Shown here in pieces: positions 1 through 17,357 of a stretch of 22,655 nucleotides of DNA. The first letter of the stretch is position 1, and each line of letters opens with the position of its first letter. The position numbers and the translations under genes are program-made. The stretch comes from a virus: positions 1 through 22,655 of the IMG/VR virus record IMGVR_UViG_3300030109_001570. One strand, written 5' to 3'. The notes beneath the pieces are model-generated. The model saw nothing but the letters and a program-made list of their open reading frames with translations, did no database searches and was not told the origin of the DNA.

Positions 1-2839
1 CAATCATGGTTTTACCTTCTTCAAGAGCGTCGTAAATTGCGCGCTTCATCGTAAGTTCGACCCAGTCTTTCTTCAGTGGTATGTCCGGCACACCGCCTTG
101 CGCAATGATTGCCTTGTCGCGCGACCTATAGAAATCACGCAGGTCTTTCGATGTAAGTTTCTCTAAAAACTCTAGGCCGCGATCATAGCCGTCGCTGTCG
201 ACCATTTTGCTTCCGTAGCGTTTCGGAGATAGATCGCGAACAGCGCCGCCGACTTCATTGCCACCGCCGCGAAAACTTGAAAGCGTCGCGACAAACATAT
301 TAAAAGCATCATACAGCTGCTCGTCGGACATTTTCTTTTTCGGCAGTTCTGCAATCGTTTGCACGATAGCATTTATAGCCTGACTCTCGGCTGAATCCGG
401 GAACACTTTTAGACTAAGTTCTACACCTAGTTTTTTAGACAAATACTTTTCCATTGCCTCGGCACGATCTTTGCCTTTGATCATGCGGCTAAAGCCTTCG
501 TACAAGCCAGACAGGTTTGTCAGGATGTCAACGTCTCTTGCCTGTTCGTTTGGATCAGTGATACGTACCTCGCCATAACCGAAAGCGCGTAGTTTATCTT
601 TCATGCGTTCGTTTATTTCTGTGCCTTCAGCTTTCCATGTGTCCATGACTTCTTCGGTCTGATAACCACGTCTGCCGCCTGCCTGCATTAAATCAGACTG
701 TATCTCTTCAATGAACATCACGCTTTTCGGATCACCGCCGCCGCCGAACATATCCGGCTGATCCGGCTGATCTAGCACGACCTCGCGATCTGTGCTTCGA
801 TAATGCGCAAACGTGTTCTGCTCAAAATGCTGATGAACGTTGGTCTGCGGAAAACGCTTGTCGTCTTCCGGCATTAACAAGCGGACTTCTTTGTAGTTCT
901 CTGGCGGGCCGCTTTCAGTCGGAAATGTAATGCTTGAATATTGCCCCGTGCCATCACCGCCATCTATGTTTTCGATGTAATTGTTTGCTCGGTGAATTGC
1001 TTCGTCTTCGCTGTCAAACTTTCCAATTGTATCATAATTATCGATAACGTCGTAACTCGCACGGTTTTCCATTGCTTCAAAGACTTCGTCTCCGTACAGG
1101 TTTGCGGAGAGGTCTTCATACAGTTCGCTTATTCGATTTTTAATGGGGCTTGGCAAATTGCCAACGCTACCACGTAGCTCGTTTCTAATCTGCTGAATTA
1201 TTTCTTTAGCAGCTTCGCGCGCCGCTTCGGCTTCTTCGTTTCCAAAATACGCAAAGTTATTTTCGATACTCAGCTCTACTTCATCTAAGACGCTTTTGTT
1301 TTTTTCGGCGTCAAATATATCAAAATACTTATTGATCATAATGTCGACGTAATCCGGTTCTCCGACAAAGCCGCCGTCTACATTGCGATATCCGCTGACG
1401 CTTCCCCGCGAAAATTCGTACTCGTCAGTTTCACGACTGCTGATCAAATCATCGAGGTCGTATGCCTCGGTAACAGTATCATATTCGCCGGGCGTGTATC
1501 CGCCGCTCCCCAAGTCGCGCGCCTCATCAAGACGCACCCGATTTGCTTCCAGAAAATCAGCTATATCTGCTTTTGTAATTGCGCCTTCGGCGTCGCGCAA
1601 AAACTTATCGAGGCCGGTTAAACCAATTTCCTCGGCTTTTGCGCCGAACTCAGCAAGTCGCTGTGGATCACTTAACGTCGCAAGCATTTGCTCACCAGAT
1701 GCAGATTCCGGCAGTGCATCAAGCATGTTTATCAGGCCGCTGCGGAACCCCATTTCATCAGGCTGCTGCGCCAGCTGCGCTTCCGGTCGTGTGCCAATTG
1801 GACCGACGCCGCTGCGCAGTACCGCGCCACCTTGAACCGGTCCGTAAACCGCCTCGTTAAAAGCGTCACGCGCCGCGCGTACAACTTTACCGCCTTGCCC
1901 GATAGCAACGCCAAGCCCAGAACCTACAGCATAACCAACGGCTGCGCTCTGCCCTACACTTTCCCAGTTCGGCTGAAACGTGCGCTCTTCGCCGGGATAC
2001 TCCATGCCCCGCAATTCATCGGCCTGCGGCGGCTGAAATTTAAAACGCTGCTGCAGATAGTCTGCCATGCCTGCATAAGCAGAACCCTCGGCACCAACGA
2101 TGCTAGAACCGAGCGCAACCTGCATAAGCTTCTTTCTAACTCCCGATTTTATTCCCGCCTTACCTCCAGCAGACAGAAGCTCCTGCACAAGTTTAAAACT
2201 ACCAACGCCAAGAGCGTTTGCCGGATCAGACAACATATTTTTAATGAAGCGAACAGTTCCCGGCCATGAAAGGTCTGGCGTGCGCTCGTACATTTCAAGC
2301 AATGCAGCTTGAGCCAAGGCGACTTCTGGCGGCATTTCGTCAATTTCTGACCAATTAACTAAACCACCAAAAAAGTTATGATTAAGATGTCCCGCATACT
2401 CGATGCCAAACTCGGCAACCTCGTTAGCGTCGCGGCCTTCAGCTAATTTACGATCTTTGTTACTTGGTCCGCTTCGGTCTGCAGCGCCCGTCATAAGAAA
2501 CATTAAATTATCACGCGCATCAGCTGGACGATCACTGTACGCGCCAATTTTGTTTTTATAGTCGTGTACAATCTTACTTGCTTCGTACCAGTTGCCATCT
2601 AATTGCAGACTATCTGCAGCATCGCCGTCAGTGTAGGACATCTCACCGATGCCTATAGGCTTGGCATCCATGCCGTACGCGATTTCTGGATCTATCTCAG
2701 CGATCCGCAACTGTTTTGCAACTTCGCTATTAGCAAACTCGCGGCGTTCTTCGTTTTCGACGAGGCTATCAGTGAGCGATCCGGGCTTTGCAGGCTGATA
2801 CGGATTGCTCTCCATCATCGATGTCGATCCGATAATCAT
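1..2839 (-). CDS. Large polyvalent-type virion protein (probable ejected internal protein), C-terminus missing
   Basis: An open frame starts at the ATG at 2837-2839 and stays open to the left edge, so at least 946 residues are present and the C-terminus is cut off. The start overlaps the stop of the upstream gene by one base (TAATG), so translation is probably coupled. The C-terminal third carries motifs of the 'large polyvalent protein' family of phages and conjugative elements: a GQYSSITFP segment near residues 631-639 followed by a PENYKEVRLL-like strand, VMFIEEIQSDLMQ near 707-719, and PLKKDWVELTMKRA near 921-934. By position, last after two smaller internal-protein-like genes, it should fill the place of T7 gp16, the big protein ejected into the cell. 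The family assignment rests on visible motifs; the role is inferred from gene order. No lysozyme or transglycosylase motif was recognised in the N-terminal part. Confidence 0.8.
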   Translation of the reverse strand, partial: MIIGSTSMMESNPYQPAKPGSLTDSLVENEERREFANSEVAKQLRIAEIDPEIAYGMDAKPIGIGEMSYTDGDAADSLQLDGNWYEASKIVHDYKNKIGAYSDRPADARDNLMFLMTGAADRSGPSNKDRKLAEGRDANEVAEFGIEYAGHLNHNFFGGLVNWSEIDEMPPEVALAQAALLEMYERTPDLSWPGTVRFIKNMLSDPANALGVGSFKLVQELLSAGGKAGIKSGVRKKLMQVALGSSIVGAEGSAYAGMADYLQQRFKFQPPQADELRGMEYPGEERTFQPNWESVGQSAAVGYAVGSGLGVAIGQGGKVVRAARDAFNEAVYGPVQGGAVLRSGVGPIGTRPEAQLAQQPDEMGFRSGLINMLDALPESASGEQMLATLSDPQRLAEFGAKAEEIGLTGLDKFLRDAEGAITKADIADFLEANRVRLDEARDLGSGGYTPGEYDTVTEAYDLDDLISSRETDEYEFSRGSVSGYRNVDGGFVGEPDYVDIMINKYFDIFDAEKNKSVLDEVELSIENNFAYFGNEEAEAAREAAKEIIQQIRNELRGSVGNLPSPIKNRISELYEDLSANLYGDEVFEAMENRASYDVIDNYDTIGKFDSEDEAIHRANNYIENIDGGDGTGQYSSITFPTESGPPENYKEVRLLMPEDDKRFPQTNVHQHFEQNTFAHYRSTDREVVLDQPDQPDMFGGGGDPKSVMFIEEIQSDLMQAGGRRGYQTEEVMDTWKAEGTEINERMKDKLRAFGYGEVRITDPNEQARDVDILTNLSGLYEGFSRMIKGKDRAEAMEKYLSKKLGVELSLKVFPDSAESQAINAIVQTIAELPKKKMSDEQLYDAFNMFVATLSSFRGGGNEVGGAVRDLSPKRYGSKMVDSDGYDRGLEFLEKLTSKDLRDFYRSRDKAIIAQGGVPDIPLKKDWVELTMKRAIYDALEEGKTMI

Positions 2840-4827
2840 TAATTGCCTCGTCCTTCGTTTGGTGGTTTGGCTGAAACAGCGCCTAATGTTTTTGCGTGCG
2901 TTTCTAACGTCGAAACAATCAATTCGATGCGTTTCTCTAACGTGAACAGTTGACGAATAGACAAACGATCTTTTTGCGAAAGCCGCTTGTCTGGGTCTTT
3001 AACGCGTTGCCGTTCGCCGAGTTCTTGCTGACTTACTGCGCCGCCGTCCATTCGTTCTTGAAACTCAACGCCATCAGCTCTTTCTACGCCATCTATCTCA
3101 AAATCATATTTACGCTCAAAACCTTCTATTTGATCGCGAAGATATTTGAGCATTGTGTTTCGAGATTTTTCAATAAACACAAGATTTTGTTCAAGTGCTT
3201 GTTTAGCGGCAACCTTATCGTCTGCGTCTTTTTCTCCTTTGCCGGGTAAAATTATTTTATTATTGTAAAAATATTTTTCAAACTGCTCGTATAAATTTTG
3301 CGGTAAGCCTTGTATCAAAGCCGTTGCTTTCTCTCCCGTCTCTGCTTTAGCGCGCGCCAGCGCATTGATATAGGCTACGCCGGGGCGCACGTCCTTTTGA
3401 AGCTGGCTATCGTAAAAATCCAAGACCTGCGCTTCCCGCAAAGGCTCGTCTGCTCTACCATACCGCGTACTGAATGCCCCAAGTGCCTGCTTTAAATTAT
3501 CCCGATAGCTTTTGCGTTCGAGAGCTTCCGGCGTTTTCGCTTTCAATCCGTTTATTTGTTTTCGTAATTCAGACGCGGCCTTGCCGCCAAGCTTCAGTCT
3601 CGCAGTGTCCTCGTGTATATCCGCGTTAATTTCGTCGAGATCGCTGTCGGTCGTAGCCTCGTTAATTTGATTTACATAATCTCTATAGAGTTTCGGGTTA
3701 TAAATTGCGTCTTCGCCGCGCATCATCGCACGTAATGAATCACGCTGATCTTTATTGAGTTCACGCAATTGTGAAATGTCAAATGCCGTAATATTTTCAA
3801 CTGGTGGGCCTTCGCCTGTTATCGCGTGTTGACGCGCTGCCAAAGTTTGAGCTTGCAACTTTTCAAATTTTGTAAGCTGCGCTTCCCTACGTTTAGTCTC
3901 ATTACGCGCGTCCTGCGTGTTCAAGTAGTTTGTTTGCGCTCTTTCTGCGCTTTCTTCCTCGCCGCTTACGGTCGCAATTAATCTATTCCGTGTATCATTG
4001 TCTAAATGAGGAAAATTCTTAGCGTCGAGCAATTGCACTTTTAAATTCTCGTATGCATTTTCTTTTTCATCACGCCGCATGCTTTCGATAGTAATCATGC
4101 TCTGTTTAACAAGATCTTCATCTAAAGAAGACAGAAAACCCCTTTCACGCTTTTCTATGTCGACAAGCGATTCACCTTGCTCTAGTCCATTGTCTCGAAT
4201 CTTTGCGACATGCGCCTGCATCGCGGCAATGCGTGTTGCTCCCGTTAGCGTGCCAATACGCCGCCGTTCGGTTTCATCGGACCTATTCATTTCAGCTTTA
4301 TAGCGGTCGAGATAGCGCGTGCGCAGTGTTGTGTTTAAACCCGGCAAGGCTGCGCGCATTTTTGCCGCAGCGGCAGCTTTGAAGCGACGCGCCACGTCCC
4401 TATCGGGTATTTTTGCCGCTTGTTTTGTAATTCGCTCCGATAACAAACTTCGCACTCTTGCCATGTGCGCCTGCTGTGTTTCAGCCGGTAATTGCACCTC
4501 GTTAAAAACGATGCCGTTCGCCGTGTTTTGCGGCGTCGTAATTGTTTGGCTTTGACCAACTGGAGCAGTCAAAACGTCCGTCTGCGCTTGAAAGAGAAAG
4601 TCGCTAAATTTATTCTCTTCAGCTGCCTGCAGCGTCGCGTTTTCTTGCTTTAGTTCGGTGACTGCAATATCGCCGAGTTGCTGACCGCCTTTGACTATTT
4701 GCGCGCCAAGCTGGAAAGCTGCGTTTGCAGGAGCTGCATACGCACTCGGCGAAGCTGACACAGATAACGGTCGCGCACCGCTGTCAGCCGTCAACGCTGT
4801 TTGTCTTCGATACTGCGGTATTTTCAT
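2839..4827 (-). CDS. Putative internal virion (ejection) protein, coiled-coil rich
   Basis: A 662-residue protein beginning MKIPQYRRQTAL. It is rich in Ala, Gln, Glu, Lys and Arg, with long helical stretches (about residues 50-470) and no signal peptide or membrane segment. An N-terminus of this style followed by a long helical body is common in phage internal or ejection proteins encoded between the tail nozzle genes and the largest virion protein, the place held by gp15 in T7. No catalytic motif was seen. The stop overlaps the start of the next gene by one base, and the upstream gene ends directly before its ATG, so the three internal-protein genes form a coupled block. The function is inferred from order and composition, not from a recognised domain. 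Confidence 0.7.
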   Translation of the reverse strand: MKIPQYRRQTALTADSGARPLSVSASPSAYAAPANAAFQLGAQIVKGGQQLGDIAVTELKQENATLQAAEENKFSDFLFQAQTDVLTAPVGQSQTITTPQNTANGIVFNEVQLPAETQQAHMARVRSLLSERITKQAAKIPDRDVARRFKAAAAAKMRAALPGLNTTLRTRYLDRYKAEMNRSDETERRRIGTLTGATRIAAMQAHVAKIRDNGLEQGESLVDIEKRERGFLSSLDEDLVKQSMITIESMRRDEKENAYENLKVQLLDAKNFPHLDNDTRNRLIATVSGEEESAERAQTNYLNTQDARNETKRREAQLTKFEKLQAQTLAARQHAITGEGPPVENITAFDISQLRELNKDQRDSLRAMMRGEDAIYNPKLYRDYVNQINEATTDSDLDEINADIHEDTARLKLGGKAASELRKQINGLKAKTPEALERKSYRDNLKQALGAFSTRYGRADEPLREAQVLDFYDSQLQKDVRPGVAYINALARAKAETGEKATALIQGLPQNLYEQFEKYFYNNKIILPGKGEKDADDKVAAKQALEQNLVFIEKSRNTMLKYLRDQIEGFERKYDFEIDGVERADGVEFQERMDGGAVSQQELGERQRVKDPDKRLSQKDRLSIRQLFTLEKRIELIVSTLETHAKTLGAVSAKPPNEGRGN

Positions 4828-9491: not shown

Positions 9492-10004
9492 TTACACCAC
9501 GTAGGTTATGAGATACGAGATGTCGCCAGCTGTATCGCCAGCGGCTTCCGACTCAAAACCAATGGTATAAAAACCATTCACTGAAGAATCACTAGAGTCA
9601 CCAGCATCTTCAAAAACGCGCTGTCCCATCTTGTTGATGTCACGCGCCTCGAAAGCTACCTCAGTTCCTGTAGTGACTGCAGCACGACAGTCAGTCGCAG
9701 CACTGCAATACGCATCCACATCTTTGACCGTAACCGTGCCGTCCTCGGCAACGAGATAAAGTCCGATATGCATTGTATGCGTCGTGCCTGAATCAAGATC
9801 ATCGTTAAAAATCTTGATCGACGTGACCGCTGCATTCGCTGGCACATTTGCCAGCATTATTGTATCGCCTGCAGAAAGATCACCAGCAGCTGCTGCCACT
9901 GTACCGCATGCGATACGCATGACGCCGCCCATATTTCTGGTCGGAGTCATTACGTGAGGATCAGCAATAAGGTTACTGACTTCTGTTGAATTGACGTTCG
10001 CCAT
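9492..10004 (-). CDS. Putative capsid decoration or minor head protein
   Basis: A 170-residue protein beginning MANVNSTEVSNLIADP. The sequence is rich in Ala, Thr, Asp and Gly, with alternating beta-type segments (GDTIMLANVPANAAVTSIKIF, THTMHIGLYLVAEDGTV, GFYTIGFESEAAG) and no signal peptide. Small proteins with this kind of start and beta-rich body often follow the capsid gene in T7-like phages and are found in virions. A strong Shine-Dalgarno sequence (AAGGAGG) sits 7 bases before its ATG, only 12 bases after the capsid stop, which points to high expression together with the capsid. No enzyme motif is seen. The role is inferred from context. Confidence 0.6.
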   Translation of the reverse strand: MANVNSTEVSNLIADPHVMTPTRNMGGVMRIACGTVAAAAGDLSAGDTIMLANVPANAAVTSIKIFNDDLDSGTTHTMHIGLYLVAEDGTVTVKDVDAYCSAATDCRAAVTTGTEVAFEARDINKMGQRVFEDAGDSSDSSVNGFYTIGFESEAAGDTAGDISYLITYVV

Positions 10005-10016
10005 TGATCAGCCTCC

Positions 10017-11568
10017 TTATTCTGAACACAAGATTTGAACGACTTTTTCTTCTTCCATGCGAGTCGCACCGAAGCTGGCACAAACGTAGACCTGAGTCGA
10101 ATATGACTTGTCTGCGCGAGGGCCTATCTCAGTTTTCAAGTCTTTACCAACAGCTAACTTGATGCCGTCTTCGGCCCAGCAAAACACTTTACGATGGTCT
10201 GAAGAATCGGTTGCCAAGCGAGTCGAGGTAATGAACTCGAATCCCAAGAACGTATTAATGTCACCTTGAACTAGCGCCTTCCGTCACACTTAGGCTTTCG
10301 CCTCCAGCTTTCGCTGTTCGTGCGCTGGACTTTCTCTTCATCTGCGAGAGATGCGGGCCGTAAAGTCTCTACACCTTCTCCTTGCGGAGCTTGGCTCGGG
10401 ATTGCCATCTTACAGGTTTCCCCGAATTTGACCCGTTTTCAGCTGACCGTCGCCGATCAGTTAGGCGAATCCACCGTATTGAAATCGCTAGAGGTAACAG
10501 TCGTCGAATTTAAAAGATCTTCGACCTGTTCTGGATGAACAGCAATAAAACGCTTAATCGAAGGATCAACGTTATTTTGATCGAGGATCTTTTTGGCGCT
10601 TACGAGTTTTGCAATTGTAAGCCCCGTCGCCGGACTACCGACGGCTACTTTTTGACCAGCTGGTAACGCGGTGCTGGTCGCACCCGCTTTCCCGGTCGAC
10701 GCCGAATCTAGCGCCGCCGCGATTATCGAATCATCCATTGCCCTGCCAATTGCGTACATTTGTTCAACTAAGTTCGCTAGACTTAGCCCGCCTTGCGGCA
10801 GCTGCATATCGCTATGCAGTTCGGATCATATTTTAGTCCGCTAGGGACTCTCGGCGCTTCGGAGCGGCTTCGCTCCTACTCCTTTCGGATGATCTCTGAA
10901 CCTTTCGACTTTCGTCGACTTGGCTGCTGATTATCTCTTAGAGACTTCCCAGCAATTCACCGAGTTATCAGCATCGTATCGCTACGAGCTGGGCCTACAA
11001 TTAAGCCGCTGCATTGGCATATGTGGACGTTGGATCGATCAACATTTGAACCTTGTCGGGATCGTCAATCAAATCGGCGTATTCCCAATGATCCATTGTG
11101 ACCATTCGACGTGAGTGAGGCGTGTCACTTACATTTTTGTTCGCACAAGTTCGCTAAACTTGCACCGCTTTCGCTGCTACACGTCACCGTGCAGATCAGA
11201 CCATGTTATCATCTACTAGAGATGCTAGGCGCTTCGAGCCGCTTGGCTCTACTCGATTTCTCGATGGTCGTTGCACCTTCCGACTTTCGTCGGCTTGGCT
11301 CAAAGTTATCTGTTACCAGACTTTCTTTGAATTCACCTAGTTTTCGAGATGCGTTGCCGCATCAAGCCGCTAAAGCTAACGGTGTGTCTTGGTGCCTCGA
11401 TGTGCGCTTCTGAGCCGTAGCTGAACCGACTTGATCGAAGAAAGCTTTTTCTCCGACAACCGACTCTTCGCTTACTGCCCGACGAAGCAAAGAGCCTTTC
11501 TGTTGGCTCAAGAGCATGACATTAGTCGAGAATTGTTGACTGAATGCCGTGGTAATTTGCGAAGACAA
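10017..11568 (-). CDS. Major capsid protein, split by three group I introns
   Basis: The capsid gene is in four exons on the - strand: 11568-11379, 11131-11004, 10756-10473 and 10281-10017. Joined, they give one uninterrupted frame. Exon 1 ends ...RHQDTP plus T, and exon 2 continues with L-S-DTPHSRRMVTMD through YADLIDDPDKVQMLIDPTS to YANAAA. Exon 3 runs from YAIGRAMDDSI to SSDFNTV, and exon 4 from KALVQGDINTFLGFEF to QVYVCASFGATRMEEEKVV. These blocks are the conserved order of a widespread podophage capsid family, with no residue missing at the junctions. The product is 288 residues if translation starts at the TTG at 11568, which has GGAGG five bases upstream; an ATG at 11580 (292 residues) lacks a Shine-Dalgarno sequence. 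Without splicing, translation stops four codons into intron 1. It forms the head shell with the scaffold encoded upstream. Confidence 0.9.
10282..10472 (-). ncRNA. Group I intron 3 in capsid gene (191 nt)
   Basis: This is a very compact group I intron with a textbook core: AATTCGGGGAAA (P4), GAGCCAAGC, GAAGGTGTAGAGACT (J6/7-P7), and P7 pairing GACTTT (10367-10362) with AAAGTC (10333-10328). P1 is short (GGTG-GATT-CGCC) with the splice-site U at T10473. The final G is G10282, and the exon joins GT to G-AAG, giving V-K-A-L-V-Q-G. The core resembles the small tRNA-type group I introns of bacteria and differs from introns 1 and 2. No internal gene is present. Confidence 0.88.
10757..11003 (-). 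ncRNA. Group I intron 2 in capsid gene (247 nt)
   Basis: P1 is GGCTTA-ATTG-TAGGCC (11007-10992) with the U.G at the splice site after T11004. The P4 strand AATTGCTGGGAA, the P5 hairpin TCTCTAAGAGA, and P6-side AGCCAAG are present. P7 pairs GATCAT (10894-10889) with ATGATC (10829-10824). The terminal G is G10757. The 3' end closely resembles that of intron 1 (TAGCGAACTT...GAACAAATG), and the length is identical. Splicing joins YANAAA to YAIGRAMDD in frame. No internal gene is present. Confidence 0.9.
11132..11378 (-). ncRNA. Group I intron 1 in capsid gene (247 nt)
   Basis: P1 forms between exon end and intron start as CCGTTA-GCTT-TAGCGG (11382-11367), with the U.G pair at the splice site after T11379. 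P2 is GATGCG-GCAA-CGCATC (11363-11348), capped by a GNRA loop. P3 pairs TCTCGA (11349-11344) with TCGAGA (11264-11259). The P4-P6 region contains the conserved GAGCCAAGCC, and P7 pairs about GACCAT (11269-11264) with ATGGTC (11204-11199). The last intron base is G11132, and exon 2 begins TAAGT, which can pair with the P1 loop (P10). Nearly all expected group I elements are visible. No reading frame long enough for an endonuclease is present. Confidence 0.9.
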
Positions 11569-11716
11569 ATTAACCTCCATCAGTTAGAGTTAAAGATGAA
11601 CGGTTATCCGTTTTCACGGGCCTGTTTGCGTGGGCCTTGCGGTTATCCACGACTTCTTCTCAACGACGTTGCTTTGCAGACCGGGCTTGCGCTTGTCAAT
11701 CTGCTCCGTTCAGTCG
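11569..11716 (-). promoter_or_regulatory. Scaffold-capsid leader with hairpin and short direct repeat
   Basis: These 148 bases hold no supported gene. On the - strand the 9-mer GGATAACCG occurs twice (11648-11640 and 11609-11601). The second copy is the core of a perfect 5-bp hairpin AACGG-ATAA-CCGTT (11612-11599), which lies before the capsid Shine-Dalgarno sequence (GGAGG, 11578-11574). It may be an RNA structure that stabilises capsid mRNA or a promoter region, as capsid genes often have their own promoter. TTGACA occurs at 11698-11693, but I see no matching -10 box. Confidence 0.35.
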
Positions 11717-12568
11717 CTATTCTTCATCCATGTCTGGATGAATCATCTCTTGAATACTAAGCGCGCGCTGCACATAAACGTCGTGCTGCGGATGTCGGCT
11801 ATCCCAATAGGGACTATCCGGTCGCATCACTTCTTCCAGCTGTTTCTGCGCTTCACCGGGCGTTACGACATTGCTGTCCTTATCGCCGACAAGCGCATCT
11901 TCGCTAACGCTTTCGTGAATATATTGCGCGGCGTTTACAACGGTGCGAATAAAGGCCGGATGATTCAACAATGGCGTGCCATCATCAAGCCGTAATTCCA
12001 TTAAGCCTTCCGCGCCGAACTCGCCGATAAAATTATTACCTTTTCCGAGACGGTCGTCGAACGCAGCGCCATATTCTTGCCGTAGTTCGGCTGTTGATTG
12101 CGCCTTCGCCGCTTCCAGATCTACTTCCGGCTGACCCATGCCGCCAGTCAACTCGATGTAACTGTCGGCAAGCTGCTGGGCTTGCGACGGGTTTAAACCA
12201 ATTTTGTGCGCCGTGTCCGCAAACCAGCCGGTCAATGCCGGATCTGCCTCGCCGCCGGGAACTTCAAAATTTAACCCATACTCGTCTGCCGACGCCGGTC
12301 GACCAAGCTTATCATAAACTTGGTTCCAGTCGTCCGCATCTGACCACTTTCCCGGCACCGCAATCTTGTCGGCACCGACCATAGATTGTGCATGCACCAT
12401 CGACTTTGCCAAGCTGGCAACGTCCTGCATGCCTGCAATGCTTGGATGATCTCTCAACTCTTCGGGGATTGCCGATTTCCAGTCTGCACCAGATTCTGCT
12501 GCGTTGTCAGACGGCGCTGCCGGTTCTACCGACGCCGCTCCCTGCTCATTTGCAAGCATTTCACTCAT
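11717..12568 (-). CDS. Capsid scaffolding / assembly protein
   Basis: A 283-residue acidic protein. The N-terminus is disordered and Ala/Ser-rich. It is followed by the family block DWKSAIPEELRDHPSIAGMQDVASLAK (about 29-55), then SMVGADKIAVPGKW and VYDKLGRPASADEYGL, then a helical C-terminal half with a Gln/Glu-rich region near 235-250. This is the typical layout of podovirus scaffolding proteins, which guide capsid assembly and leave or are lost before packaging. It lies directly before the capsid gene, as expected, and overlaps the Bbp19-like gene by 8 bases. No protease motif was seen. Confidence 0.85.
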   Translation of the reverse strand: MSEMLANEQGAASVEPAAPSDNAAESGADWKSAIPEELRDHPSIAGMQDVASLAKSMVHAQSMVGADKIAVPGKWSDADDWNQVYDKLGRPASADEYGLNFEVPGGEADPALTGWFADTAHKIGLNPSQAQQLADSYIELTGGMGQPEVDLEAAKAQSTAELRQEYGAAFDDRLGKGNNFIGEFGAEGLMELRLDDGTPLLNHPAFIRTVVNAAQYIHESVSEDALVGDKDSNVVTPGEAQKQLEEVMRPDSPYWDSRHPQHDVYVQRALSIQEMIHPDMDEE

Positions 12569-12788
12569 TTTCCATCATCTCCATTATGTTGTGGTCAAGG
12601 TCTTTGGTCATGTTCTTGATAATCAAAACGACACTGCGCTGCCCTTCCAAATAAGCCATCTCCAACGCGTCAGAGCTGAACGTCGGCTGATCGCCATGAA
12701 ACCGCGTGCGCAAATCTTCTAAAACAATCTGACCGTCGTCGGTCGCAAACAGCGTCTTGTATGTCTTTCGTAATTCCTGCGGGGTCAT
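12561..12788 (-). CDS. Bbp19-like small phage protein
   Basis: A 75-residue protein: MTPQELRKTYKTLFATDDGQIVLEDLRTRF, then PTFSSDALEMAYLEGQRSVVLIIKNM. The pattern 'F.T.dG..VL.DL..rF......f..d...ma..eGqRsVvl.I...' is that of the Bbp19 family found between portal and scaffold genes of podoviruses. Its molecular role is not established; it may be a minor head component. It starts inside the portal gene stop (ATGA, four-base overlap) and ends inside the scaffold gene start, so the three are translationally coupled. Confidence 0.75.
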   Translation of the reverse strand: MTPQELRKTYKTLFATDDGQIVLEDLRTRFHGDQPTFSSDALEMAYLEGQRSVVLIIKNMTKDLDHNIMEMMENE

Positions 12789-14458
12789 GCAGCCTCAACT
12801 GCTTCCGGCGGCAGCGCGCCCTCTTCCATCGGCATATTCATAGCAGCATCATCGACCGCTTTCACCATCGGTGCGGCTTTGCCTGCGGCCTGCGCCACTT
12901 GCATTGCCTCTGCCATTTCTTGCTGCTGGGCCTGCTCGGCAGCGCGTTCGTCACGCTTGCCTAATACCTCTTGCTCGCCACGCACGACCGTCGCCGGGAT
13001 CGACAGCGTTTTAATCAGATGCTGCGCCATGCCGTCCATGTCCAAATAATCGGCAATCGAAGGATCTATGGACATAAGCGGCTGCATGAACTCCATAAGC
13101 TGTACCATCGACTGCGCGTCGCCTTTACGCTGTGCGCGTGCCAACGGTGAAACGTATTCGATCTCGATGTCGCCTGCGCCCTGCAGAAACTCTGGCGGCT
13201 GCGGGAATGCCTCTTGCTTCGACATGATTGCCCAGCAACGATTTATCATCGGCTGCAAAAGCTCCGACTGCAGACGACCAAGCACAGGGCCAAGCATACG
13301 CATCGACTGCTCGGTGCGCTGCAGCACCTCAGTCGCCGTCATGTTCGGGCCTTGGGATAGCTGTAAATGGTCGACATAGAACGCGCTGCGCACCGCTTGG
13401 CGGCGCTGTTCTTCCATATTCAACGCGACCGGCGTGTTGCTGCCGATCTGTAATGGCTCAAGACGATCACGCGTGCCGGATCGATAAAAGTTCAGACCGC
13501 CAGGCACCACGCGAATGGGCAAGAGGAAGCCATCGTCCGGCACCATCAGCGGCGGGTCTGTCATCTTTTGCGCGGCCCGCAGATTAACTTCAGACATGCG
13601 ATTCAATACTTTCGTATCCGCAAGCGCAGTCATTCCACAGCTTCTGCCATAACCCAGCTCAGTCGATGACTTGAGCCAGCGCGGACAAACGAAAGGAAAC
13701 TCATCATAGCCGCTTTCACCGAGAACCTGCTGATCTTCTTTGTCGAGATACATCGACAGAAACGGCTTATTTGTTTTGTTTAACTTTAACGGATCGCGTT
13801 CGTTACGCGGCTGCACCACATGTATGATTTCGACTTGCTCATACGGATCGCGTTTTTCCGTTTCTTTAATGCGGTCTGTAATGTTCTCCGCACCAAACTC
13901 ATCGATGGCGGCGCGTGCCGACATTTTAAACTTTCGGTAAACCGTGTCGACGCGGCCATGCGCATTCTCGGCAAGGTAGACTTCGGCAATGTGTCGCGTT
14001 GAAAACCGGAAGTTATTAACGTCGTCCGGCTCGATCATCATGGTTGCCGTACCAAAAACGACGAGGTCGTCATATAGCTCTTGAATCTGCTCTTGGAAAT
14101 TCGACCTGTGAAAAGCCGTATACATTGCGTCTTCAGCACTCAGTAGCCATTCACGCGCCTCGTCATCTAGTTGCAGATCGCCGTCGCGATAGCGTAGAGA
14201 AAACCAAGATGTCGACATATTGGTCATCATGCCGTGCAACGACGCCGAAAGCATTTCGGCGGCACGAACTGCGGTGCCGTCAAAGATTTGTTCTGTGCGC
14301 TTTTTGCCGGGCGTTTGCGACGTTTGCGTAATATCGGCCTTACGCGGACGCATATAGTCGGCAAGCTCCTGCCAATGGGATTCCCAGGTCGAGCGTTGCT
14401 GCTCTAGCTTCGACAAGCGACGCAGCAGGATTATTGCGCGTTTATCAGCTTCAGCCAT
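12785..14458 (-). CDS. Portal (head-to-tail connector) protein
   Basis: A 557-residue protein whose start (LLRRLSKLEQQRSTWESHW, ELADYMRPRKADI) and later blocks (KKRTEQIFDGTAVRAAEMLSA, HGMMTNMSTSWFSLR, LGYGRSCGMTALADTKVLN, QGPNMTATEVLQR) match the T7-type head-tail connector family. It forms the dodecameric ring through which DNA is packaged and to which the gatekeeper binds. Its length fits the family. The C-terminal 70 residues are Gln/Ala/Met-rich (AAEQAQQQEMAEAMQVAQAAGKAA). The ATG follows the stop of the upstream Pro-rich gene with no gap. Confidence 0.93.
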   Translation of the reverse strand: MAEADKRAIILLRRLSKLEQQRSTWESHWQELADYMRPRKADITQTSQTPGKKRTEQIFDGTAVRAAEMLSASLHGMMTNMSTSWFSLRYRDGDLQLDDEAREWLLSAEDAMYTAFHRSNFQEQIQELYDDLVVFGTATMMIEPDDVNNFRFSTRHIAEVYLAENAHGRVDTVYRKFKMSARAAIDEFGAENITDRIKETEKRDPYEQVEIIHVVQPRNERDPLKLNKTNKPFLSMYLDKEDQQVLGESGYDEFPFVCPRWLKSSTELGYGRSCGMTALADTKVLNRMSEVNLRAAQKMTDPPLMVPDDGFLLPIRVVPGGLNFYRSGTRDRLEPLQIGSNTPVALNMEEQRRQAVRSAFYVDHLQLSQGPNMTATEVLQRTEQSMRMLGPVLGRLQSELLQPMINRCWAIMSKQEAFPQPPEFLQGAGDIEIEYVSPLARAQRKGDAQSMVQLMEFMQPLMSIDPSIADYLDMDGMAQHLIKTLSIPATVVRGEQEVLGKRDERAAEQAQQQEMAEAMQVAQAAGKAAPMVKAVDDAAMNMPMEEGALPPEAVEAA

Positions 14459-14724: not shown

Positions 14725-14958
14725 CTATTTTCCTGCCAACAGGTTCGGCGTTGTTGGGCTAACCGCTTCCTCGGTGGTTAGTCCACGCGGCCCAGTTAAA
14801 ATGGTGCTGCTTATGCCCTTCTTTCGACGCTGCCGCTCCTCCTCTCGGTCTACCTCTGACGTTTTCACGTCGACAGGCTTAATCGGTGGTGCTGGCGGTG
14901 GTGGCGGAATCGGTGGTAACGGCGGTGGCGAAGGTATTTTTGGCGATAAAAACGACAT
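14725..14958 (-). CDS. Small Pro-rich protein B, paralogue of the neighbouring gene
   Basis: A 77-residue protein: MSFLSPKIPSPPPLPPIPPP and more Pro (residues 6-29), a charged helix (VDREEERQRRKKG), then SSTILTGPRGLTT and a terminal NLLAGK. The order of polyproline, basic patch, (S/T)xLTGxxG and LL-G(Q/K) is shared with the next gene downstream, which points to tandem duplication and divergence. The ATG overlaps the terL stop by one base (TAATG), and only two bases separate it from the next gene. The function is unknown. Confidence 0.65.
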   Translation of the reverse strand: MSFLSPKIPSPPPLPPIPPPPPAPPIKPVDVKTSEVDREEERQRRKKGISSTILTGPRGLTTEEAVSPTTPNLLAGK

Positions 14959-16292
14959 TACAATACTGCCTGTGCTTGGCTTGTCAGTGGGTTATATGCA
15001 GCCGCAGCAGTAATCTGCGGCGGCGTCGAACTCGGATCAAAATCACGTATTCCTATCGCGGCATAGCGAAATGCGTCGGCACCATGTGAAGCCCAGTCGT
15101 GGACAACGCTAGTGCGAAACGTGCGATTCTTTTCGTCATATTTGCGGTGGTAATAACGCAAAGCTTCTAAGCCTTGGTGGCAGTTATCTGCGTCGAACCA
15201 GCAGCGCGGTATAAGCATCTTTGCCGCATGGATGCCGTCTTCCAAAGGCAGCTTTGGCAAAACCCTAAAATTTATACCTAAATCATATGCCGCCTCGCGC
15301 CGCGATCTGCCGGTCGACATTTCGCGAACCTCGATGTCATGCGGCGCATGATGCGTTCCGTAGAGATAGCCTTTGTCATCTAAAAGTCTGGCATAAAACG
15401 GGAGTCCTTCGTTGCGTTCTTCTTCGTAATCGATGACGTGAATCGCGCGACCGACTTTCTGCGTAAACCAAATTGCTGTCGCGTCGCCTATACCGAGATC
15501 AAAAAACGTATCTACGCGGTGGCTTGGATCATACGGCACTTTGGTAATCTGGCCGTCTTCCTCGATTGCCTGCAATTCTTTGCCGAAAATGCTGCCCGGT
15601 ACTGAAGCAATAAAGCTGCATTGGAACTCTTGCTCGTACTGACTTTCGGACATTGAGGCCGCAGCCGCGTCTAGCTCTTCCTGCGGTAAAATTTTTGTAT
15701 CGCTGGCCTTCAGCATCGAGCGATACCAGCCGCCTTCGTGACCCGCCAATTCCCAATAATCATAAAAAGCGTTATGGCCTGCAGGTGTACCGATAAATAT
15801 ACAATACGTCGGGCATTCTACTGTATTGCGATCTGCTAAAGCGGGACGCAGAATCTCAGGAAAGACGCGTTCCGGCATGCTGCTTACCTCATCGCAGACG
15901 ATGCCATCAGCATAAATTCCACGAAGCCGATCCGGTTCCTCACCGCCGACCAGCTGCAACCTTGAGCCGTTCGGCAAATCACAGCGCAGCTCCGTTTCGT
16001 TGAACTTCACGCCGGGTATCTTGCGTGCAAATTCCTTACAGTAGTCCCATGCAACAGCCTTGGCCTGCACACGCGTCGGAGCGACATAGAAAAACCGCGC
16101 ATTCGGTCGCGGACACAATATCGCGTCACGCAACAGATGATTAATCGCCATCACCGTCTTACCGAAACGACGATGCATGACAAGCACCGACCAACGGTGC
16201 TGGCTAACCTGCTCATGCAGCAACTGCTGAAGCGGACGCGGGGTATACGGAATCTCAATAGCGTTGTCCGCTTTGGCGGCTTTACGGCTCAA
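14958..16292 (-). CDS. terL: Terminase large subunit
   Basis: A 444-residue packaging ATPase/nuclease. The Walker A-like P-loop is HRRFGKT at about residues 40-46. Walker B is IVCDE at 131-135 (catalytic E135), and the coupling motif region is FIGTPAGHNAFYDYW at about 167-180. The C-terminal nuclease shows DTFFDLGIGDATAIWF (first acidic residues D261/D265/D270), then HVIDYEEE. It cuts and translocates DNA into the head through the portal. The start is a TTG at 16290-16292 that overlaps the stop of the 54-residue ORF (TTGA), so coupling is likely. Length and motif order are normal. Confidence 0.93.
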   Translation of the reverse strand: MSRKAAKADNAIEIPYTPRPLQQLLHEQVSQHRWSVLVMHRRFGKTVMAINHLLRDAILCPRPNARFFYVAPTRVQAKAVAWDYCKEFARKIPGVKFNETELRCDLPNGSRLQLVGGEEPDRLRGIYADGIVCDEVSSMPERVFPEILRPALADRNTVECPTYCIFIGTPAGHNAFYDYWELAGHEGGWYRSMLKASDTKILPQEELDAAAASMSESQYEQEFQCSFIASVPGSIFGKELQAIEEDGQITKVPYDPSHRVDTFFDLGIGDATAIWFTQKVGRAIHVIDYEEERNEGLPFYARLLDDKGYLYGTHHAPHDIEVREMSTGRSRREAAYDLGINFRVLPKLPLEDGIHAAKMLIPRCWFDADNCHQGLEALRYYHRKYDEKNRTFRTSVVHDWASHGADAFRYAAIGIRDFDPSSTPPQITAAAAYNPLTSQAQAVL

Positions 16293-16693: not shown

Positions 16694-16861
16694 TTAGTTT
16701 CGTTCGCTGTTCTCGCGCGAGTTGCTGACCGTGTCCTGCGTGTTACACACACAGCTTCCACCACAACCGCACTTCCCTTTCCGCGTATAAACCTTGCCGC
16801 TCTCCTTACGCCTCTGCCTCCATACCGGCTTCGATAACTGCGCTGCCTCGACACGTCTCAT
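16694..16861 (-). CDS. Small Cys-rich basic protein (55 residues)
   Basis: The frame begins at an ATG that overlaps the HNH gene stop (ATGA, four bases) and runs MRRVEAAQLSKPVWRQRRKE, then SGKVYTRKGKCGCGGSCVC and a polar tail (NTQDTVSNSRENSERN). Four cysteines in CGCGGSCVC (residues 31-39) could bind a metal ion. The stop overlap, protein-like composition and continuation of a chain of coupled small genes favour a real gene over the longer Arg/Ser-rich frame in the same place. No family is recognised. It may be a nucleic-acid-binding micro-protein. Confidence 0.55.
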   Translation of the reverse strand: MRRVEAAQLSKPVWRQRRKESGKVYTRKGKCGCGGSCVCNTQDTVSNSRENSERN

Positions 16862-17073
16862 CGTCTTGACCTGTTCACCTTCTTGCTCACTGCGCGCAGG
16901 TTACTGCGCTTGTTGTTCATCGGATTGCGGTCACGGTGATCGACATCAAGGCCGAGTAACTTCGCGCCGTTCGCTGCCATCTTGCGTCGCGCCTTGTTGC
17001 GTGAGCTGCGTCGCTTCACTTGCTTCGGCTTGCTATGGTAGCTGTCGTATTCTTTGCGGTAATTACGAGCCAT
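16858..17073 (-). CDS. Small HNH-type endonuclease-like protein
   Basis: A 71-residue basic protein: MARNYRKEYDSYHSKPKQ, a basic helix (VKRRSSRNKARRKMAANG), then GLDVDHRDRNPMNNKRSNLR and NRSRR. The core D45-H46...N54...N58-L fits the His-Asn part of an HNH motif (DH.D.NP.NN...NLR); there are no zinc-ribbon cysteines. Such small HNH proteins next to terminase genes are widespread in phages, and in HK97-like phages an HNH protein assists terminase cleavage. The ATG at 17073 shares one base with the preceding stop and has GGAAG upstream; a TTG four codons earlier is less likely. The alternative is a homing-type nuclease. Confidence 0.75.
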   Translation of the reverse strand: MARNYRKEYDSYHSKPKQVKRRSSRNKARRKMAANGAKLLGLDVDHRDRNPMNNKRSNLRAVSKKVNRSRR

Positions 17074-17357
17074 CAGCACTTCCAACGTCTACGTGCTTGC
17101 CTGATTCTGCTGTTCGGATCATTGCGTGTCTTTGCGCTGCTACGCTTCAGCTGGCCTGCAGAGCGTGCGCAGTAACTACTGCGTCGCTTGGCAGCTGCAC
17201 TGCCTTTCTTCACCTTGCCGGTCACAGCTGTCTTCAGCTTGCTGCCGGGGTTCGCCTTGCGGTAAGCACTCACGCCTTTCTTCGTCATGCCTGCGCCGGA
17301 CTTCGTCGGCCTGTAGTTCGCACCTTTGCCCTTCGTCGTGCGCCTGATGCTAGGCAC
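17073..17357 (-). CDS. DUF6321-like small basic protein
   Basis: About 94 residues from a GTG at 17355-17357. The core is GAGMTKKGVSAYRKANPGSK, then LKTAVTGKVKKGSAAAKRRS, SYCARSAGQLK and DPNSRIRQARRRWKC. This matches a conserved phage/bacterial family (DUF6321 as I recall it) in which the Lys/Arg-rich sequence and a Cys near 'FCARSxG' are typical. The function is unknown; nucleic-acid binding is plausible from charge. I chose the GTG because it overlaps the previous stop by 8 bases; the longer upstream frame translates out-of-frame sequence of the preceding gene. Confidence 0.7.
   Translation of the reverse strand: MPSIRRTTKGKGANYRPTKSGAGMTKKGVSAYRKANPGSKLKTAVTGKVKKGSAAAKRRSSYCARSAGQLKRSSAKTRNDPNSRIRQARRRWKC

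Follow-up and report, generated by a model that had tools for sequence, protein, structure and literature searches.

The minus strand of IMG/VR virus record IMGVR_UViG_3300030109_001570 (positions 1 to 22,655, the whole of which is called the window here) very probably carries at 10017-11568 the major capsid protein gene of an HTVC010P-type marine podophage, divided into four pieces by three compact group I introns. The original prediction, made from the letters and their reading frames, had proposed a major capsid gene with three group I introns, and the analysis supports it. The parts of the gene are listed below in the order of transcription. RF00028 is the Rfam group I intron model, and L numbers denote loci compared with the window.

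11379-11568, minus strand: major capsid protein exon 1, TTG start at 11568 (spliced alignment and sequence)
11132-11378, minus strand: group I intron 1, 247 nucleotides (nt), class A, no open reading frame (ORF); RF00028 match 11388-11177, 74.3 bits, E 1.8e-17; empty in L004 and L053, same intron in L017 and L018
Elements of intron 1: internal guide sequence (IGS) GCGG 11367-11370; P3 11334-11340/11225-11231; P4 11325-11330/11300-11305; P7 11264-11269/11199-11204
11004-11131, minus strand: capsid exon 2 (spliced alignment, empty-site relatives)
10757-11003, minus strand: group I intron 2, 247 nt, class A, no ORF; RF00028 match 11014-10802, 53.5 bits, E 3e-11; empty in L004, L017 and L053
Elements of intron 2: IGS GGCC 10992-10995; P3 10958-10964/10850-10856; P4 10949-10954/10925-10930; P7 10889-10894/10824-10829
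10473-10756, minus strand: capsid exon 3 (spliced alignment, empty-site relatives)
10282-10472, minus strand: group I intron 3, 191 nt, class B, no ORF; RF00028 match 10491-10302, 52.4 bits, E 7e-11; filled in L053 and 18 other alleles, empty in L004 and L017
Elements of intron 3: IGS GCC 10464-10466; P3 10430-10435/10354-10359; P4 10421-10426/10395-10400; P7 10364-10367/10328-10331
10017-10281, minus strand: capsid exon 4 including the stop codon (spliced alignment, spliced-frame translation)

Intron boundaries and ribozyme cores

The minus-strand search with RF00028, which the original prediction had named as its own test, placed every one of the three gaps above the Rfam gathering score of 50 bits. 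Intron ends were obtained by spliced protein-to-DNA alignment, which received the DNA together with the capsid protein in its spliced form and was not given the earlier coordinates. The introns returned, 11378-11132, 11003-10757 and 10472-10282, are identical to those first read from the letters.

The 80 best-matching capsids from viral contigs served for the comparison of natural empty sites. L004, whose capsid protein is 91% identical, has no intron, L017 and L018 have one at site 1 only, L053 has one at site 3 only, and L072 contains a single intron at a fourth site near codon 46. The inserts correspond to clean gaps in the alignment of the relatives, and the ligated window junctions (CACCGT/TAAGTG, GCGGCT/TACGCA and ATACGGT/GAAGGCG) line up base for base with the intronless sequence of L004 (CACCGT/TAAGTG, GCCGCG/TATGCG and ATACCGT/GAAAGCG). 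Because the gaps are clean and the junctions run on exactly as in intronless genes, each window intron represents an insert that entered a functional gene, and its two ends are known to single-base precision independently of any splicing model.

Excision leaves a frame with no stop, as had been claimed, comprising 292 codons from the ATG at 11580 or 288 from the TTG at 11568. The spliced protein gives a full-length match to the profile phrog_3437, "major head protein" (residues 6-291, E 2.1e-94), and the comparison with podophage capsids that had been recommended showed 56-65% identity to pelagiphage capsids. The TTG at 11568 is a plausible start because the Shine-Dalgarno sequence GGAGG (11574-11578) is located five bases before it; the in-frame ATG four codons upstream is an alternative.

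All three introns contain P1 with the U.G pair, P3, P4 and P7 and end in G, in agreement with the original prediction, with the qualification that the P1 of intron 3 is short (GGU/G paired with CGCC). Two classes of intron were distinguished. Class A (introns 1 and 2) has an insertion with two extra hairpins between P7 and P3, seen in both the RF00028 match and the class alignment, and probably belongs to subgroup IA, judging from sequence; class B (intron 3) is compact. In class A, P3, P4, P7 and P8 are paired in 99.3% of cells, and 15 of the 24 pairs have changed on both sides somewhere. Covariation is 0.577 in class A against 0.202 when shuffled (0/500), with at most 0.14 when partners are slid, and 0.329 against 0.112 (0/500) in class B, where 99.2% of cells are paired, P3 and P8 covary and P4 and P7 are nearly invariant. 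Such compensatory changes are the mark of selection on the ribozymes. The guide also tracks its exon target, as CCGU is matched by GCGG, GGCU by GGCC, GCCU by GGGC, GUCCU by GGGAC, CUCU by GGAG and GCGU by GCGC.

The first in-frame stops occur 17, 3 and 16 nt into the window inserts, by which an intein or a programmed frameshift was rejected. Across all alleles, the first in-frame stop of each intron is complete 3-33 nt past the 5' splice site; chance alone would place a stop that early in about 40% of introns (estimated from 3 stops per 64 codons). In phage introns, an early in-frame stop prevents ribosomes from entering the ribozyme core.

Insertion sites and same-site spread across the lineage

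The capsid gene is a hotspot of intron gain and loss. A search with exon 3 only, by which interrupted genes are not penalised, yielded 80 loci, 32 of them with at least one intron, 45 intact and 3 partial; interrupted genes of the lineage were processed by spliced alignment. When all searches were pooled, 129 distinct alleles were obtained (32 intron-bearing, including the window, 94 intact and 3 partial). Twelve insertion sites were found, given as codon and phase: 46.1, 54.0, 56.0, 64.0, 67.1, 68.2, 72.0, 87.2, 110.0, 204.2, 264.1 and 279.0. The window introns occupy sites 67, 110 and 204, and the largest number per gene is four (contig 3300030102_004614). Introns measure 188-269 nt across alleles, which leaves no room for an ORF, and no homing endonuclease gene was found inside any intron of the lineage.

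RF00028 matches in whole records are situated on the capsid gene with one exception, L177. In this locus (approximately 1400-1700, minus strand) the capsid gene is intact and the intron is found in the next downstream virion structural gene, a homologue of the window gene at 9492-10004. The claim that the introns are exclusive to the capsid gene was abandoned, given L177 and the presence of the same intron families in other genes elsewhere. At codon 87 phase 2, two unrelated introns (approximately 62% identical) have inserted at exactly the same site, one in L172 and L174 and the other in L139, L155 and L179.

G+C content is 51% in the window phage and 51-61% in all 32 intron-bearing loci. A capsid intron is found in 0 of 29 close relatives below 50% G+C and in 32 of 48 at or above 50%, a difference in which clade and host effects are not separated.

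Introns at a given site are far more alike than the genes that harbor them. Intron 1 of the window is 100% identical to that of L184, while the 4-fold degenerate exon sites of the two are 57% identical. The corresponding values are 95-98% and 36-49% at site 87, and 85-88% and approximately 30% at site 204. Conversely, L185 encodes a capsid protein 100% identical to that of the window and has a different intron set (56+67+204 versus 67+110+204), and its site-204 intron is only 91% identical to the window's.

Occupancy of site 204 requires at least 11 changes on a capsid tree from which the region around the site was masked. Among diverged carriers of this intron, third-position identity is 0.535 within 45 nt of the site and 0.377 farther off. 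In non-carriers it is 0.395 near and 0.392 far, and 0 of 200 non-carrier sets reach the carriers' difference, which is an indication rather than a probability since carrier pairs are not independent. The near-site excess is the trace left by DNA transfer in which neighbouring exon sequence is co-converted. Class B introns have spread horizontally between phages at site 204, with their flanks co-converted. The result applies to site 204, as site 67 is without divergent carrier pairs and site 87 offers only 8 pairs with mixed introns, which were not used.

Some points weigh against the reading given so far. The window is a metagenomic contig. The alignment program forces a U before each intron and a G as its last base, and in the relatives these two letters therefore carry no independent weight. 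The site of intron 2 ends in G (GCG) in intronless relatives, and the window therefore needs a synonymous change to GCT. The controls of the co-conversion test were non-carriers not matched by clade, in addition to the dependence among carrier pairs. Efficient splicing in infected cells and the exact in vivo junctions are inferred.

Proposed routes of intron movement

After transcription, the RNA of each intron would fold into a group I ribozyme. Its internal guide sequence would hold the final U of the upstream exon in P1, the cut would be made at this U, and the exons would be joined to restore a single frame. The stop codon 3-17 nt into each window intron would bar ribosomes from the ribozyme core. 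The introns are probably mobile, being gained and lost at many positions of the capsid gene. At site 204, class B introns pass between phages at the DNA level, carrying short exon flanks. Likely, this transfer occurs by recombination or trans-acting homing; an endonuclease of the intron's own is disfavoured because none is encoded.

In the intron tree, sisters at different sites have matching targets: CGGCU at sites 54, 56 and 110, CCGU at 67 and 279, GGU at 204 and 68, and CCU at 264 and in one of the two site-87 introns. This pattern suggests repeated P1-guided jumps within one gene, as by reverse splicing. New positions might be reached mainly by reverse splicing into the abundant late capsid mRNA followed by reverse transcription and recombination, a route that we regard as possible and rather doubtful. 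The shared P1 targets and the lack of an endonuclease gene in any intron speak for it. However, only introns that fit their target persist whatever the route, so that shared targets are no proof of it; selection for introns that function would produce an identical pattern. No reverse transcriptase turned up, although no search aimed at one was made, and the co-converted flanks at site 204 suggest that same-site spread proceeds by DNA recombination.

An equally tentative proposal is that a homing endonuclease encoded by a separate phage gene cleaves intronless capsid sites and mobilises the introns in trans, as in the collaborative homing of the cyanophage psbA intron. The co-converted flanks are consistent with such cutting, and HNH_3 genes are present in these genomes, including the window:

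16858-17085, minus strand: HNH_3 gene, small protein, adjoins a DUF6321 protein and the terminase

As an intron driver, the window HNH_3 gene, the only candidate encountered, is not supported. It lies beside terL, and such genes occur in carriers and non-carriers alike; many carrier contigs, themselves fragmentary, lack them. HNH genes beside terminases commonly serve packaging. In pelagiphages HTVC011P and HTVC025P, HNH_3 homologues sit beside the gene for scaffolding.

It is improbable that the introns were acquired long ago, have since been passed down vertically and no longer move, perhaps with a regulatory role in delaying capsid synthesis. The well conserved cores and the absence of encoded endonucleases would fit such a history, as would site 67, where all carriers fall in one close group (at least 89% amino acid identity) with only 4 changes on the tree. 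The excess of intron over silent exon identity at sites 67, 87 and 204 argues against it, as do the differing intron contents of close capsids such as L185 and the window, the repeated changes at site 204 and the co-conversion there. A decayed pseudogene, chimera or assembly artefact, for which the metagenomic source is the argument, was rejected as hardly credible given the conserved cores with compensatory changes, the recurrence of the same introns in independent contigs (some 100% identical) and the intact spliced frame.

Genomic setting and capsid introns in other phages

The genes around the capsid gene follow the order expected in a podophage: terminase, connector, scaffold-position neighbour, capsid and tail tubular proteins.

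14958-16292, minus strand: terminase large subunit (phrog_2, 1e-34)
12785-14458, minus strand: head-tail connector or portal protein (phrog_332, 6e-156)
11717-12568, minus strand: upstream neighbour at the scaffold or protease position (phrog_3742 / phrog_458)
9492-10004, minus strand: downstream virion structural gene (phrog_8455)

A near-identity search of the whole window against the phage collection gave no match. Two single-cell Pelagibacteraceae contigs and one Pseudomonadota metagenome-assembled genome contain capsids only 39-61% identical to the window's.

Scans of viral contigs with two core signatures found at least 242 cores. Among the matches listed, 82 are at capsids of the HTVC010P-type family, and the commonest single family in the 134 other flanking frames is the major head protein phrog_1328, with 24 members. 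Other flanks in these matches belong to HNH and homing endonucleases of several kinds and to additional head families, with a small number of ribonucleotide reductases and portals. These scans give no measure of a general capsid preference because the signatures were derived from capsid introns. Twice, the two flanks correspond to adjacent segments of a single head profile (phrog_1328, 3-117 and 123-308; T4-type phrog_10, 260-441 and 444-635), and the intron is therefore inside the gene. In L404, a viral contig, the T4-type major head protein (phrog_10) at 2047-3497 is split by a class A intron. We consider it conceivable, with slightly less confidence than either route above, that the capsid gene of this abundant podophage lineage is a landing platform for endonuclease-free introns, which would reach new sites in the gene by guide-directed reverse splicing into its abundant late mRNA and then recombine between phages. 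Related capsid introns in other marine phage families (phrog_1328, phrog_267 and T4-type phrog_10) would then make capsids the main home of marine phage mini-introns.

Comparable introns were found in named phages. The cultured Pelagibacter phage HTVC120P (L439, MH598807.1) has a 197-nt class-B-like intron at 3470-3666 between gp29 and gp30, with an RF00028 score of 48.6 bits that is just below the cut-off of 50 (E 2e-11); after excision, the capsid has the length of that of phage Bylgja (326 amino acids). Deep1-GF2-KM23-C739 (L440, KT997847.1), an uncultured member of the Autographiviridae, harbors capsid introns at 3469-3648 and 4178-4357 (78 and 76.9 bits). GenBank lists two "capsid protein" coding sequences flanking such an intron in each, which bears out the expectation that automated annotation would report fragments. 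Like the window, the two are marine podophages with class-B-like capsid introns; unlike it, their capsids are of a T7-like family and have one and two introns, respectively. Outside capsid genes, Vibrio phage vB_VpaM_R16F (L441, OP793884.1) has a fragmented terminase large subunit at 591-3081 with four RF00028 matches of 72-94 bits, pointing to four group I introns.

The introns of T4 td, nrdB and nrdD and of Twort also have a stop close after the 5' splice site, and many carry homing endonucleases; class A probably shares their subgroup IA architecture. Phage group I introns are mostly found in DNA-metabolism genes (PMC3706429, introduction). The original prediction considered three introns in one capsid gene unusual, which needs qualification, as multiple capsid introns have precedent. 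The major capsid protein gene of the crAss-like Zeta group, known from metagenomes, is split into five fragments by group I-type insertions in the complete metagenome-assembled genome (cMAG) OLRF01000054 (Yutin et al. 2021, PMC7886860). Those gut phages are large and have many intron-bearing genes, the introns being identified via intron-encoded endonuclease domains, whereas the introns of the window lineage are ORF-less, approximately 190-270 nt long and concentrated in the capsid gene of small marine podophages.

Mycobacteriophage LittleE has a single capsid-gene intron whose splicing was demonstrated by reverse transcription PCR (Pope et al. 2013, PMC3706429), and a capsid intron of lactococcal phage Tuc2009 is cited in the same paper. 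The LittleE intron and the tail introns of BAKA and Optimus resemble those of the window in being located in virion genes with empty sites in sister phages, with U before the intron and G at its end (PMC3706429). They differ in occurring once per gene, unlike the three in the window. The BAKA intron is ORF-less, as are the window's, whereas that of LittleE carries an endonuclease gene (PMC3706429). Mini group I introns by the thousand, with a mean of approximately 206 nt and splicing backed in part by metatranscriptomes, have been described in Jug phages (PMC12363816). Their small size is similar; unlike the window lineage, these are huge gut phages with introns genome-wide (terL, nrdD, polymerase).

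No report of capsid introns in HTVC010P-type or other pelagiphages was found in the open-access literature. Capsid introns as such were already known; new here are ORF-less introns at many sites of one gene in small marine phages, with a cultured representative. Textbooks place phage introns in DNA-metabolism genes, and a capsid location does not fit that picture. In practical terms they create a blind spot, with capsid marker genes recorded as fragments. The presence/absence mosaic at 12 sites of one gene constitutes a natural experiment on endonuclease-free intron movement. If splicing occurs, the most abundant protein of the phage depends on several ribozyme steps, which would be surprising for a small genome, and HTVC120P, cultured on Pelagibacter HTCC7211, makes the splicing of capsid introns directly testable.
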